DNA from: Gammaproteobacteria bacterium
GTDB taxonomy: Bacteria > Pseudomonadota > Gammaproteobacteria > HK1
Direction: 5' to 3'
Assembly: GCA_018224385.1 (NCBI GenBank)
Contig: JAGTVB010000351.1
Span: forward strand, 1-39,273
Length of the DNA stretch: 39,273 nt
Made by a program: the position numbers and the translations under genes. Below the pieces are notes generated by a model that did no database searches, was not told where the DNA came from, and saw only the letters and a program-made list of their open reading frames with translations. Below are positions 575 through 39,273 of this stretch, in pieces. Position 1 is the stretch's first letter, and every line of letters begins with the position of its first letter.

Positions 575-2335
575 ATGATGGAAAAAATCCAGACAGACGT
601 TGCTATCGTCGGTGCTGGTGGTGCAGGTCTACGCGCTGCCATTGCGCTGGCCGAGGCTGACCCAAAGCTTCGCATTTCTTTAATTTCTAAGGTCTATCCG
701 ATGCGAAGTCACACGTGCGCCGCTGAGGGAGGCGCCGCGGGTGTCATCAAGCCCGACGACAGCATGGATCTTCACTTCAACGACACCGTCGGCGGAGGGG
801 ACTGGCTGTGTGATCAGGACGCGGTTGAGTATTTCATCAAGGAAGCGCCTAAGGAGCTCACTCAGCTTGAGCACTGGGGCTGTCCTTGGAGCCGGGAAGC
901 GGATGGCTCGGTAGCCGTGCGACCTTTCGGCGGGATGAAGATTAAGCGCACGTGGTTTGCCGCCGACAAGACCGGCTTTCATCTGCTGCATACGCTGTTT
1001 CAAACATCGCTCAAGTATCCATCCATTCAGCGCTTTGACGAACATTATGCAACGGACTTGCTGGTGGATGCCGGTCGTTGTCAGGGATTGACCGCTATCG
1101 AGATGCGCAGCGGCCAGCTGCGGCAGTTTCAGGCGAAGGCTGTGATCATTACCACCGGCGGCGCTGGCCGGATGTTTCCCTTTACCACCAACGGCGCCAT
1201 CAAGACCGGAGACGGAATGGCGATGGCTTACCGCGCCGGTGTGTCCCTAAAGGACATGGAATTTGTTCAGTACCATCCGACCGGCCTGCCCAATACCGGC
1301 ATATTGTTGACCGAAGGTTGCCGCGGCGAGGGCGGAATATTGGTTAACAAGCACAATTACCGGTATCTGCAGGATTACGGTATGGGTCCTGAGACGCCTA
1401 TTGGTCAGCCGGTTCTCAAGACCATGGAGCTTGGTCCGCGGGATCGTCTCAGTCAGGCATTCTGGCATGAGCAGAAGAAAGGCAATACCGTTCCAACCCC
1501 CTGGGGGGACTGCGTGCTCTTGGATATGCGCCACCTCGGTGAAAAGCTCATTGACGAGCGCCTGCCGTTCGTACGCGAACTCGCCACCAGCTATCTTCAA
1601 AAGGACCCGGTCCACGAGCCGATTCCTATTCGGCCGGTTGTGCATTACATGATGGGCGGTATTCACACCGACATCAATGCGGCGACGGTGCTGCCGGGGT
1701 TGTTTGCAGCGGGCGAATGTGCGTGCGTAACCATTAATGGGGCAAATCGGCTCGGCTCGAACTCATTAACCGAGCTTCTCGTGTTCGGTAAGCGGGCCGC
1801 GCTGAGTGCGGTAGAGTACATTGGCTCCGGGGTGACACCAAATGATGCGGCCATCACGAAGCAAGCGGAGCGAGTTCAGGGCCGAATCCGTACGCTCTTT
1901 GAGAAGAGTGGTGGAACGGAATCCATTTCCGGTTTGCGCAAGGAAATGACGGATAGCATGGAAGAGCACGCGGGTATTTACAGAACCGCAGAGGGCCTGC
2001 AATCCGCGTGTGCCAAGATTGGCGAGCTCAGGCTTCGCTATGCAGATATAGAGCTGCATGACAAGACGAATGTCTACAATACCGATCTGCTGCAAGCGCT
2101 TGAACTCGGCGCGATGCTCGATTGTGCAGAAGCCGTAGCGGTCGGCGCGCTGGAACGAAAGGAATCCCGTGGTGCCCATCAGCGATTGGATTTTGAAGCG
2201 CGCGATGATCAGAACTACCTGAAACACACGCTGGCTCATTATCACCCTAACGAGCCCCCACGGATCGAATATCTGGATGTGGTGATAACCAAGTCCCAGC
2301 CAAGCGTGCGTGATTATTCAGGAGCGAAGAAATGA
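575..2335 (+). CDS. frdA: Fumarate reductase flavoprotein subunit FrdA
   Basis: FAD-binding [67 protein letters not shown]. Followed by FrdB and E. coli-type FrdC and FrdD. ATG 575 chosen over the GTG at 557. Confidence 0.95.
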
Positions 2336-3075
2336 GCGAACGGCAGATTCAGCTGGAAGTCTTGCGCTATAACCCTGAGACCGATAGCGAGCCGCGCTTC
2401 CAGACCTATTCGGTGCCCTGCGAGGCGGAATGGGTGGTTCTTGATGCGCTGAACTATGTCAAGGACCATCTGGACACCACGCTAAGTTACCGGTGGTCCT
2501 GTCACATGGCGGTATGCGGCAGCTGTGGCATGATGATAAATGGTGAACCCACACTTTCCTGCAAGGCGTTCCTGCGAGATTATCCGGATACTATTCGCGT
2601 GGAACCCCTCGTGCACTTTCCCATTGAACGGGATTTGGTCACGGTCATCGATGATTTCATGGAAAAGCTTAATCGCGTCAAACCCTATCTCATTCCCAAA
2701 GAGGCGCGAACGATCGCCGAAGGCGAATACCGGCAGTCTCCCGCAGAGCTTAAGCGGTTTAAACAGTACACACTGTGTATCAATTGCATGCTGTGTTATT
2801 CCGCGTGTCCCGAATATGGGTTGATACCGGATTTCATTGGTCCCGCAGCGATTGCGTTGGCGCACCGTTATAACAGTGATTCGCGCGATGGCGGGCGCGA
2901 GCAGCGCCAGCAGGTTATTGCGACCAAGGAGGGTGTCTGGGAATGTTCATTTGTCGGCGCATGCTCTGAGGTGTGCCCAAAGCACGTCGATCCGGCCGCC
3001 GCGCTACAGCAAGTGAAGATTGCGAGCACCGTGGATTGGTACAAAGAGCACTTGATGCCGTGGGGGAAGTCATGA
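2332..3075 (+). CDS. frdB: Fumarate reductase iron-sulfur subunit FrdB
   Basis: 2Fe-2S ([16 protein letters not shown]) and [15 protein letters not shown] plus [11 protein letters not shown] cluster motifs. ATGA overlap with frdA. Confidence 0.95.
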
Positions 3076-3464
3076 GCCGTAAACCATACGTGCGAGAGGT
3101 TCCGAAGACCACCTGGTATTTCCGGCAGGGACGCTACATGCGCTACATGGGGCGCGAAGTGACCTGTATTTTTGTGGGTGCCTACGCGCTGTTTTTGCTG
3201 GTTGCAATTAAGCGCTTATCGGAAGGGCGAGCGGCATACGAGGCTTTTCTCGAAGGCCTCAGCAGTCCGGCGGGCATTCTATTTCAGGTCGTCACGCTTA
3301 TTTTTGTTCTGTACCACGCGACGTCCTGGTTCAATTTGACTCCAAAGGCAATGCCTGTCCAGAGGGGTGAACAGTTCCTGCCAGGGGGCGTCATTGTTGG
3401 CGCTCACTACGCTGGCTGGGTAGTCGTGTCACTTGTTGTTTTGTTTTTGGCGGGGGTGTTCTAG
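3072..3464 (+). CDS. frdC: Fumarate reductase membrane subunit FrdC
   Basis: [43 protein letters not shown]..., three TM segments, E. coli FrdC-like. ATGA overlap with frdB. Confidence 0.92.
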   Translation: MSRKPYVREVPKTTWYFRQGRYMRYMGREVTCIFVGAYALFLLVAIKRLSEGRAAYEAFLEGLSSPAGILFQVVTLIFVLYHATSWFNLTPKAMPVQRGEQFLPGGVIVGAHYAGWVVVSLVVLFLAGVF

Positions 3465-3466
3465 TC

Positions 3467-3808
3467 ATGGCAAAGTCGAACAAGCCCATCGTTTGGGGAC
3501 TATTTGCTGCGGGAGGCACCCTAACCGCTTTCTTTCTTCCGGCGCTGATCGTCCTGACGTTGCTGGCGGCACTCGGTTATGTGCCCGATTTATTGGCGTA
3601 TGAAAACATGCGCGCGTTTGCTGAGCACTGGTTCGGCAAATTGGTGCTGTTCGTCATAGTCTCTCTGTCCCTGTGGCATGCCGCACATCGCCTGCGGATT
3701 ACCTTGCATGACTTTGGCTTCCGCAGTGATACGCTGATTGCCAGCGCTGTTTATTTAGTTGCGGCGCTCGGCACGATTGCAGCGATTGTCTATTTATTAC
3801 GAATTTAA
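3467..3808 (+). CDS. frdD: Fumarate reductase membrane subunit FrdD
   Basis: MAKSNKPIVWGLFAAGGTLTAFFLPALIVL...HAAHRLRITLHDFG, FrdD-like, directly after frdC. Confidence 0.92.
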   Translation: MAKSNKPIVWGLFAAGGTLTAFFLPALIVLTLLAALGYVPDLLAYENMRAFAEHWFGKLVLFVIVSLSLWHAAHRLRITLHDFGFRSDTLIASAVYLVAALGTIAAIVYLLRI

Positions 3809-36342: not shown

Positions 36343-37596
36343 CTAGAAGAGGCTAAACCCCAGAGGAAGGCGAAGCGTCATCCGGACATCCGGTGCGTCG
36401 TCCGTTACGCCGATGTTCAAGCTTACATTAAGCGTGTTTATACCCGTGAGCTGGTGGGTAAAGCCCACGACGAAAGAACCGACATCCGCGTTTGAACCGA
36501 TAATATTGTTCCCCCTTTGTTTGGTCTCGCCCAGAATGACGTGATCGTAGGCAAGGCTGAACGAGGCGCGTTGGTTGAGCGCAAACCCCATGCCGAAATT
36601 AAAACCAACGGCATCTCCCGGGTTGATTTCGCCGACATCACCCCCGATGTTTTCGCTGAGATTCCACAGGTAGCTCGCATTGGCGAAAAACACAGCCGGG
36701 TCGGACGGATAGAGGACGGTCAGACTAGGCTGGAGGGCCCAGAATCCAGAACCCGTGGGAAGTTCAGTTGGTAATCCCGTGCCGGGGTCGAAGTCGACAT
36801 CGAATGGGCCTTTGCCGGTGGGCGCTTTGGCGCGGACGTTTCCCACAAAAAAAGGCCATCCACCGAGTCCTCGATTGAGCTGGTAGTGCAAGGCGAATTC
36901 CACATCACCAATGCCGTTGCCCTCCGCCGTGAAGACGTCATCGGTTACTGAGCCAATGCCTAGGGGACGGGTACGGGTGCTGTCGTCGCGAAAGACGTAG
37001 GGTACTTTCACTTCAGCCTCCAAGCGATTAACAAACCCGTATCGCAGCGTTATCGCCGGGATGATCGCATCGCGATCGATTTCGCGGATGTCGATTTGGC
37101 CAATGGATATGGCCGGTATAATGGTGAAGCCTTCCAGTGCCACGCGATTGCGCGAGGAATGGGAGTATTCCACGGAAGGCTCGATGACTAACTCGCCCTG
37201 CCGCGTGAGAACGCCCCCCACGTCATCGGAGATTCTTGCCACAACTGGCGGCTCTTCATTTTGCGATTCCTCAGGAGCTGTTCCCACTGTTTGCCTGCTT
37301 GTTGAGCCGGAATCGGCTTGCGCCAGTAGGAGCGGAGCAGGAGCCGGGATGCTCGATCCCGCGGAAGACTGGTTGTTTGCTGAAGGTTGGGTAAGAACAG
37401 CATCCCCGAGGCCGTGTGCAGGTGTCGCTAGCCGGTAGCGGAACTGATCTTGAGAGAAGGCCGAAGTGTCCTCTGGGCCCGGCCAGAGATCCGTTTCAAA
37501 ATTTACGGTGGCAAGGCCGTAGCTGGAAAGCGTACCAAGGACGACAAGGGATAGCGATCGGCAGATGACAAGAGAGCCTGGCTCGTCCTTAATCAT
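36343..37596 (-). CDS. Outer-membrane beta-barrel / transporter-like protein
   Basis: N-terminal hydrophobic segment, Pro/Ser-rich linker, many amphipathic beta strands, C-terminal ...VRMTLRLPLGFSLF ending in Phe (typical beta-barrel assembly signal). Confidence 0.75.
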   Translation of the reverse strand: MIKDEPGSLVICRSLSLVVLGTLSSYGLATVNFETDLWPGPEDTSAFSQDQFRYRLATPAHGLGDAVLTQPSANNQSSAGSSIPAPAPLLLAQADSGSTSRQTVGTAPEESQNEEPPVVARISDDVGGVLTRQGELVIEPSVEYSHSSRNRVALEGFTIIPAISIGQIDIREIDRDAIIPAITLRYGFVNRLEAEVKVPYVFRDDSTRTRPLGIGSVTDDVFTAEGNGIGDVEFALHYQLNRGLGGWPFFVGNVRAKAPTGKGPFDVDFDPGTGLPTELPTGSGFWALQPSLTVLYPSDPAVFFANASYLWNLSENIGGDVGEINPGDAVGFNFGMGFALNQRASFSLAYDHVILGETKQRGNNIIGSNADVGSFVVGFTHQLTGINTLNVSLNIGVTDDAPDVRMTLRLPLGFSLF

Positions 37597-37974: not shown

Positions 37975-38030
37975 GAAATGAAGAAAAAGTAGCCGGGCAC
38001 GTCCTTTCGCACCCACGAAAGAGGTGTGCC
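37975..38030 (-). terminator. Candidate intrinsic terminator/attenuator after the double-glycine protein gene
   Basis: Minus-strand GGCACACCTCTTTCG-TGGGTG-CGAAAGGACGTGCC followed by CGGCTACTTTTTCTTC. Confidence 0.5.
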
Positions 38031-38048: not shown

Positions 38049-38588
38049 CTAAAAGTCACGTGCACTCTCAGCAATCCACCGTGCGGTGGATAAACCAGAA
38101 CGCAGGGTGACAAGGTTAGAGATACGAATATCCATGATTGAAATATTCTGTATCAGCTGGTTATCTAAGGTGTTCTGGGTTAATGAGAATTGGCTCGAAG
38201 CATCTTTTAAGAGCTTCGACGTCATGCCATGGAATGCGTCAGTATAATCAATATCGCCATATTGTTTTCCGGACCCATCGGTAAAATAGCTGGATTCATT
38301 GGCATCAAGCGACCTGTCGATGTGAAGGTTGCCGTTAATCAGCGTGAGCTTCCTTATACCGAAGCTCACTTCCAATCCCCCCGGGGTACGAAATCCGCCC
38401 CGCAAACGATCCAGTTCAGAATCCGCCACTGAATTAAGGGATGAAAAACTACCATTGGCTTCTGTTTCAGCGCTGACAGATTTCGAAATAATCAATACTA
38501 AGGCAAAGCTAAAGTACATAAACAGGGAGCCCAATTGGCGTCGGCTGCCAGGGTGGTTAAGTGAGTGTGATTTGGTTATGAAGCTCAT
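38049..38588 (-). CDS. Sec-exported protein with internal double-glycine leader-like motif
   Basis: Signal-like segment LFMYFSFALVLIISKSVSA then SLNSVADSELDRLRGG|FRTPGGLEVSFGIRKLTLINGNL; C-term FSLTQNTLDNQLIQNISIMDIRISN. Confidence 0.75.
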   Translation of the reverse strand: MSFITKSHSLNHPGSRRQLGSLFMYFSFALVLIISKSVSAETEANGSFSSLNSVADSELDRLRGGFRTPGGLEVSFGIRKLTLINGNLHIDRSLDANESSYFTDGSGKQYGDIDYTDAFHGMTSKLLKDASSQFSLTQNTLDNQLIQNISIMDIRISNLVTLRSGLSTARWIAESARDF

Positions 38589-38598
38589 CGGTGCTTAC

Positions 38599-39273
38599 TC
38601 AAAAGTCATTTGTGCCTGGCAATAAGAGCGTCAGACTAGCTAAACCTTGGTGACTTACTGCCATCGATAATGGTGCACGGGGGATAGCGTTCCATTCTTC
38701 TTGAGTATTGAAGTTCTGTAACCGCTGTCGCGGATTTGCACTCTGCACGATAAAGAGAATCCCACTTTTCCAGCTCTTGGTAAACTGCTCCCGTGGAATT
38801 AAAGTGATTCCTGTTGCCGGATCGCCGATCAGTACACGGTTTCTGTCCATGCCTTTAACGACCACAAAATGCAGGTACCCCTCCGTATCGGTAAGTGCGA
38901 TGGCAGGAAGCCCAGCCTGAGCGAGTTTCTCTAATGAGATCCGATAGCCGTTGGCACTGTAACCCTTGGTCTCCAAGTAATTTTTCATGTCCAATAAAGA
39001 AAATCCCTCTCGGCGTATTTTTTCTGAATCTCCTGCAGCGAGCATGGCGTCAAGGACGATCTGTTCGTCTACCGGCTGGCCATAGTGATAGGTCAACAGG
39101 GTTGCCACCGCTGCAGCGCCGCAACTGTAATCATACTGCTGCTTGACGACGCGCTCGAACGGCTTGTCTTTGTAACTGGTTACGCGGACGGAGAACACTC
39201 CGGCGGATCCGCTCAGCGCCACCGTCCCGGCGTTGGCTCCCCCGAGAAAAAGGCCAAGCATGATTGGCGCCAA
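38599..39273 (-). CDS. C39-family cysteine peptidase (may extend past the window edge)
   Basis: Catalytic Cys VVKQQYDYSCGAAAVATLLTYHYG; His GYLHFVVVKG; Asp RVLIGDPATG. N-term MLGLFLGGANAG looks like the end of a signal peptide. Confidence 0.88.
   Translation of the reverse strand: MAPIMLGLFLGGANAGTVALSGSAGVFSVRVTSYKDKPFERVVKQQYDYSCGAAAVATLLTYHYGQPVDEQIVLDAMLAAGDSEKIRREGFSLLDMKNYLETKGYSANGYRISLEKLAQAGLPAIALTDTEGYLHFVVVKGMDRNRVLIGDPATGITLIPREQFTKSWKSGILFIVQSANPRQRLQNFNTQEEWNAIPRAPLSMAVSHQGLASLTLLLPGTNDF

Follow-up and report, generated by a model that had tools for sequence, protein, structure and literature searches.

C39 peptidase domains classically cut double-glycine (GG) leaders of the register LSxxELxxIxGG. 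This consensus string is also present in PMC12724294. In Fap, the functional amyloid system of Pseudomonas (fapABCDEF), FapD is periplasmic and its C38A variant abolishes secretion, the N-terminal ~70 residues of FapE give no peptides in mass spectrometry, and the FapD substrate is described as undetermined, the Fap proteins being without canonical C39 sites (PMC5557850, PMC6173800). Pairs of fapD and fapF have been reported in five additional phyla (PMC6173800), and a 2025 review again presumes that FapE and FapF are the FapD targets (PMC12822426). Two further systems resemble the locus described here: the PCAT/AMS GG-peptidases and the putative Fil pilus system of Acinetobacter, on which the papers found gave almost nothing. 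The locus very probably holds genes D, E and F at the end of a divergent Fap-like operon, in which the E protein would carry tandem leaders, be cut by the C39 peptidase and exit through the barrel.

The window, the whole stretch of DNA analysed here, is the complete contig C351 (39,273 bases) of a draft genome with 390 contigs and 91% completeness. At its right end, three genes follow one another on the minus strand, encoding a C39 peptidase (38599..39273), a 179-residue exported protein (38049..38588) and a 417-residue outer-membrane protein (36343..37596). The C39 stop codon is separated from the next ATG by 10 nt, and the second and third genes are 452 nt apart. Because the window is the whole contig, the 5' end of the C39 gene, with the start of its signal peptide, is missing. 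The original prediction of two same-strand genes about 10 nt apart is borne out, and the third gene had been overlooked. A possible terminator is located 34 nt past the stop of the second gene (37994..38015, minus strand), although such sites are at chance level (three found versus 2.7 expected). In three other loci, an extra gene for a small exported coiled-coil protein is found between the corresponding second and third genes (L055, 7172-7585; L051, 9612-10073; L049, 8306-8734).

The 224 residues present of the C39 product match the Pfam family Peptidase_C39 (PF03412) at 8e-26 and the NCBIfam family FapD at 4.9e-43 (147 bits against a curated cut-off of 330). None of the catalytic-site residues Q45, C51, H135 and D151 varies among 47 homologues, in agreement with the expected retention of the Cys/His/Asp motifs. 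The C39 domain ends at approximately residue 178 and the protein stops 46 residues further on without any ABC-transporter domain; its homologues likewise consist of a signal peptide and a C39 domain only. The remaining part of the signal peptide (39229..39273, minus strand) comprises the hydrophobic core and an ANA|G site (LAPIMLGLFLGGANA|GTV), with a predicted cut at ...GGANA|GTV, and homologues have complete signal peptides. The peptidase is thus stand-alone and, judging from its sequence, exported, as originally proposed, and a C39 domain forming part of an ABC exporter was seen in no locus read. The AlphaFold model has a pLDDT of 88.7 and, among PDB structures, is most similar to PCAT/AMS GG-peptidase domains, including 6mpz, which was solved with a leader peptide. 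The locus shares with PCAT/AMS the C39 fold, the catalytic residues and the leader register (L-12, S-11, E-8, L-7, I-4, G-2 and G-1), whereas it differs in having no ABC transporter, in the Sec signals on both peptidase and substrate, and in the placement of the leader after the signal peptide.

The 179-residue protein begins with a clear Sec signal peptide (residues 1-40, ...SVSA|ETEAN; 38469..38588, minus strand) and has a GG at residues 64-65, as the original prediction stated. Residues 41-65 (ETEANGSFSSLNSVADSELDRLRGG; 38394..38468, minus strand) form a putative GG-type leader, in which V-12, L-7, L-4, G-2 and G-1 match the leader consensus. Cleavage after GG would release a domain of 114 residues starting with FRTPGGLEVSFG (38052..38393, minus strand), a length in line with the post-GG part of homologues. 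The GG dipeptide alone is present in 67% of shuffles of this protein and is not significant, while the full register with RGG[FY] occurs in 3e-5 of shuffles; the comparative evidence for the predicted leader is far stronger than this statistic. The predicted structure of the protein has a low pLDDT (67.8), and a fold search with it gave no meaningful match.

When public genomes were scanned with an alignment of the C39 family, selecting by C39 similarity only, 80 loci were obtained from Dyella, Halomonas, Methylobacter, Massilia, Cupriavidus, Paraburkholderia, Colwellia, Nitrosomonas, Geotalea, Brevundimonas and others. Together with the loci found earlier, these make 101 C39 genes, one locus being counted twice (L048 = L117). 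The pattern [LMF]xxxRG[GR][FYLIMVW] is found in the gene after C39 in 89 of the 101 loci, versus 86 of 11,709 other ORFs. Among the 12 misses, six have RGG in a frame passed over by the filter, one has RGT, three from halomonads have RAG, and two (contig C21 of the same genome and L056) have a different architecture. After inspection of these misses, the leader is present in the next gene, behind a Sec signal, in 99/101 C39 loci, which are spread over many proteobacterial groups, so the neighbourhood check called for by the original prediction shows a conserved pair. The prevailing residues are V/L at -12, S/D at -11, E at -8, L at -7, L/M at -4, R at -3, G at -2 and -1, and F at +1. The invariance of R-G-G or R-G-(R/K) in alignments A4 and A6 arises partly by construction, since their proteins were picked by motif; the count over all C39 loci is the unbiased figure.

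The distance from the signal-peptidase site, predicted in homologues by a simple heuristic, to the GG is 20-50 residues in most cases (median 32), and 130-560 residues in a few lineages. The long parts before the GG are a transmembrane segment with a coiled coil in two gammaproteobacterial loci and Ala/Pro-rich pro-regions in Burkholderiales. Irrespective of how long the preceding part is, 100-150 residues (median 121) usually follow the GG. A constant C-terminal product after a variable N-terminal part is the expectation for a genuine cleavage site, which the putative site would then be. Very long pro-regions precede the GG leader in the FapE-like proteins of L062, L047, L088, L122, L121 and L134, and consist of a transmembrane segment and coiled coil or of 400-700 Ala/Pro-rich residues.

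The 417-residue product matches NCBIfam FapF at 1.7e-49, below the curated cut-off, as well as PF13557 (2.2e-6) and FilC (6.5e-13), and a FapF-like barrel is found near nearly all C39 loci. The 179-residue protein matches NCBIfam FapE only weakly on its own (0.028 over residues 31-79, below the curated cut-off), and its family has essentially no named relatives in Pfam or NCBIfam. Profile-profile comparison with hhalign of 76 homologues against 15 canonical FapE sequences gave a probability of 92.6% and an E-value of 4.5e-7 over 119 columns, and the leader motifs of the two families superpose in this alignment. On the basis of the FapD and FapF profile matches and the alignment to FapE, we identify the peptidase, the leader protein and the barrel as a divergent fapD-fapE-fapF. 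We call the system Fap-like, rather than canonical Fap, because the matches to FapD, FapE and FapF all fall short of the NCBIfam equivalog cut-offs. The original prediction had regarded FapD as a partial parallel; the link is real, but the peptidase belongs to a homologous family. The comparison that it made of the substrate with FapB and FapC was the wrong test, because this protein occupies the fapE position and is distantly homologous to FapE. What stands of that interpretation is the conserved pairing of an exported C39 peptidase with a Sec-exported GG-leader protein.

The system shares with Fap the D-E-F order, the exported C39 peptidase, the FapF-type barrel, a remote FapE homologue whose leader has the same position and, in related operons, N/Q-rich repeat proteins upstream. 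It differs in that its proteins fall under the curated cut-offs, its E protein is shorter, and the putative site reads RGG|F rather than the RG(R/K)|(Y/F) of canonical FapE. The Fil system is also similar, FilB matching the C39 peptidase at 1.3e-34 in addition to the FilC match of the barrel, but these matches are far under the cut-offs (119.9 versus 475 bits for FilB and 48.8 versus 630 bits for FilC) and weaker than those to Fap.

The unmistakable GG leader of the variant makes a matching, disguised leader visible in canonical FapE. With small variations, the motif L-S/T-D-x-E-L-x-x-M-R-G-(R/K)-(Y/F) is located at the corresponding position in all 16 distinct canonical loci read, and FapA has a similar leader, L...RG(R/L)(Y/F), in three canonical loci. 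Loci of the RG(R/K) type include L010-L024, L057, L093 and L131. L093 and L131, from relatives of Halomonas, have both an operon of the RGG type and a canonical one, at most about 7 kb apart. A plasmid search with canonical FapE gave one weak match, from Acidithiobacillus. In the FapD tree, canonical FapD forms one clade of 12 (support 0.957), so that Gly versus Arg/Lys at -1 tracks the enzyme clade; positions 53, 86, 107, 108, 110, 183 and 194 of the enzyme differ between the RGG-type and RG(R/K)-type clades. Exactly which bond would be cut in canonical FapE is uncertain, because Arg/Lys at -1 is unusual for C39 peptidases.

In about 90 loci, a small Sec-exported protein is encoded directly upstream of C39. 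Most of these proteins have a single C-terminal repeat of the form GxAFxxxxGxxxVIQNSGNNVIIQN, and a tolerant search, which is weaker evidence, found a looser leader in 85 of them (RGG in 26, RGR in 15, SGG in 13, and others). Farther upstream, relatives have large proteins rich in N/Q/S/T or in Gly, and FapC-like repeats are present in some of them; the FapB match of one, from L040, is only 0.08. Related operons usually have a large repeat protein and a small one-repeat leader protein where Fap has fapA-B-C. Pfam and NCBIfam contain no usable named family for the E-like, small upstream or large subunit proteins. The small-protein model also picks up the repeats of the large proteins and has a weak match to the E protein of G042; the three substrate families therefore look related. 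Searches of the same genome (91% complete) with a FapC-like relative and the small-upstream-protein alignment did not find the missing upstream genes. As the small-protein query finds matches in five other genomes, these genes probably lie in an assembly gap, and any FapC-like repeat genes upstream here would fall past the contig end.

The C39 and E genes are absent from all 16 genomes of the same family, and the G+C content of the E gene is 46%, versus 57% for the window. Both observations are consistent with horizontal acquisition, without amounting to proof. Further C39-type sequences were noticed in the same genome. On contig C21 (L053), a second exported C39 protein, possibly a lipoprotein (3046-3720, plus strand), directly follows a FapF/COG4313-like barrel (1970-3019, plus strand). 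A divergent gene (981-1310, minus strand) encodes a 109-residue Sec-signal protein with LDADAMDRIVGA|F, a GA-type leader whose register matches that of the GG leader. The end of contig C225 (L054, 6484-6899) carries a fragment of C39 type next to genes for minor-pilin-like and large surface proteins; this fragment may belong to the beginning of a type 1 exporter.

We propose a processing pathway for the E protein based on the gene cluster and its homologues. The upstream genes of the Fap-like (functional amyloid or fibre) operon would have been lost past the contig end. The first leader of E, the Sec signal, would deliver the protein to the periplasm, where the second leader would be recognised by the exported C39 peptidase and cut after GG. 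The mature domain, predicted to have about 114 residues, would then be handed to the FapF-like barrel and leave the cell. Outside, by analogy with Fap, it may help to start or anchor a fibre.

Non-cutting C39-like domains are known in some type 1 exporters (PMC5557850), and the peptidase could accordingly be a docking or chaperone domain that binds the leader as a targeting tag without cutting it. We consider this unlikely, because the four catalytic-site residues are invariant in the 47 homologues, the GG itself is conserved, and the FapD C38A variant abolishes Fap secretion (PMC5557850). Somewhat less probable again is that the main target is the linker of the outer-membrane barrel and that the E leader is merely structural. 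FapF was proposed as the target in Fap because GG/GA motifs precede its barrel (PMC5557850), and the fapD-fapF pairs in five additional phyla (PMC6173800) favour this idea. E nevertheless conserves the R-G-G register, of which the small upstream protein has a looser form, while an unsystematic reading of FapF-like proteins noticed no such leader.

The resemblance of the leader to those of GG bacteriocins might also suggest that the C39 peptidase was left over from a bacteriocin or ABC export system, with E as the bacteriocin. This is highly improbable: the peptidase has its own signal peptide and lacks an ABC-transporter domain, a FapF-like barrel is near nearly all loci, and the E family is related to FapE. 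The ABC-exporter or bacteriocin reading was rejected, as no transporter domain was found. As the likely reading we retain that the exported C39 peptidase of a Fap-like operon cuts the E leader.

Beyond this locus, periplasmic processing of GG leaders may be widespread. In this broader proposal, for which we see an even chance, a Sec signal precedes a GG leader, in some proteins by hundreds of residues, and one exported C39 peptidase cuts at least two substrates (FapE-like proteins, the small upstream repeat protein and, in canonical Fap, FapA), licensing their secretion through a FapF-type pore. The second gene set on contig C21 suggests that such processing extends beyond Fap.

The system is ordinary in kind, being Fap-like, but more informative than the original prediction supposed. 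The open question of the FapD target is narrowed to specific candidate bonds in E and canonical FapE, and the hints in the published Fap record gain a defined site. Furthermore, the variant suggests a second substrate family and suggests that leader processing by C39 peptidases can come after Sec export.
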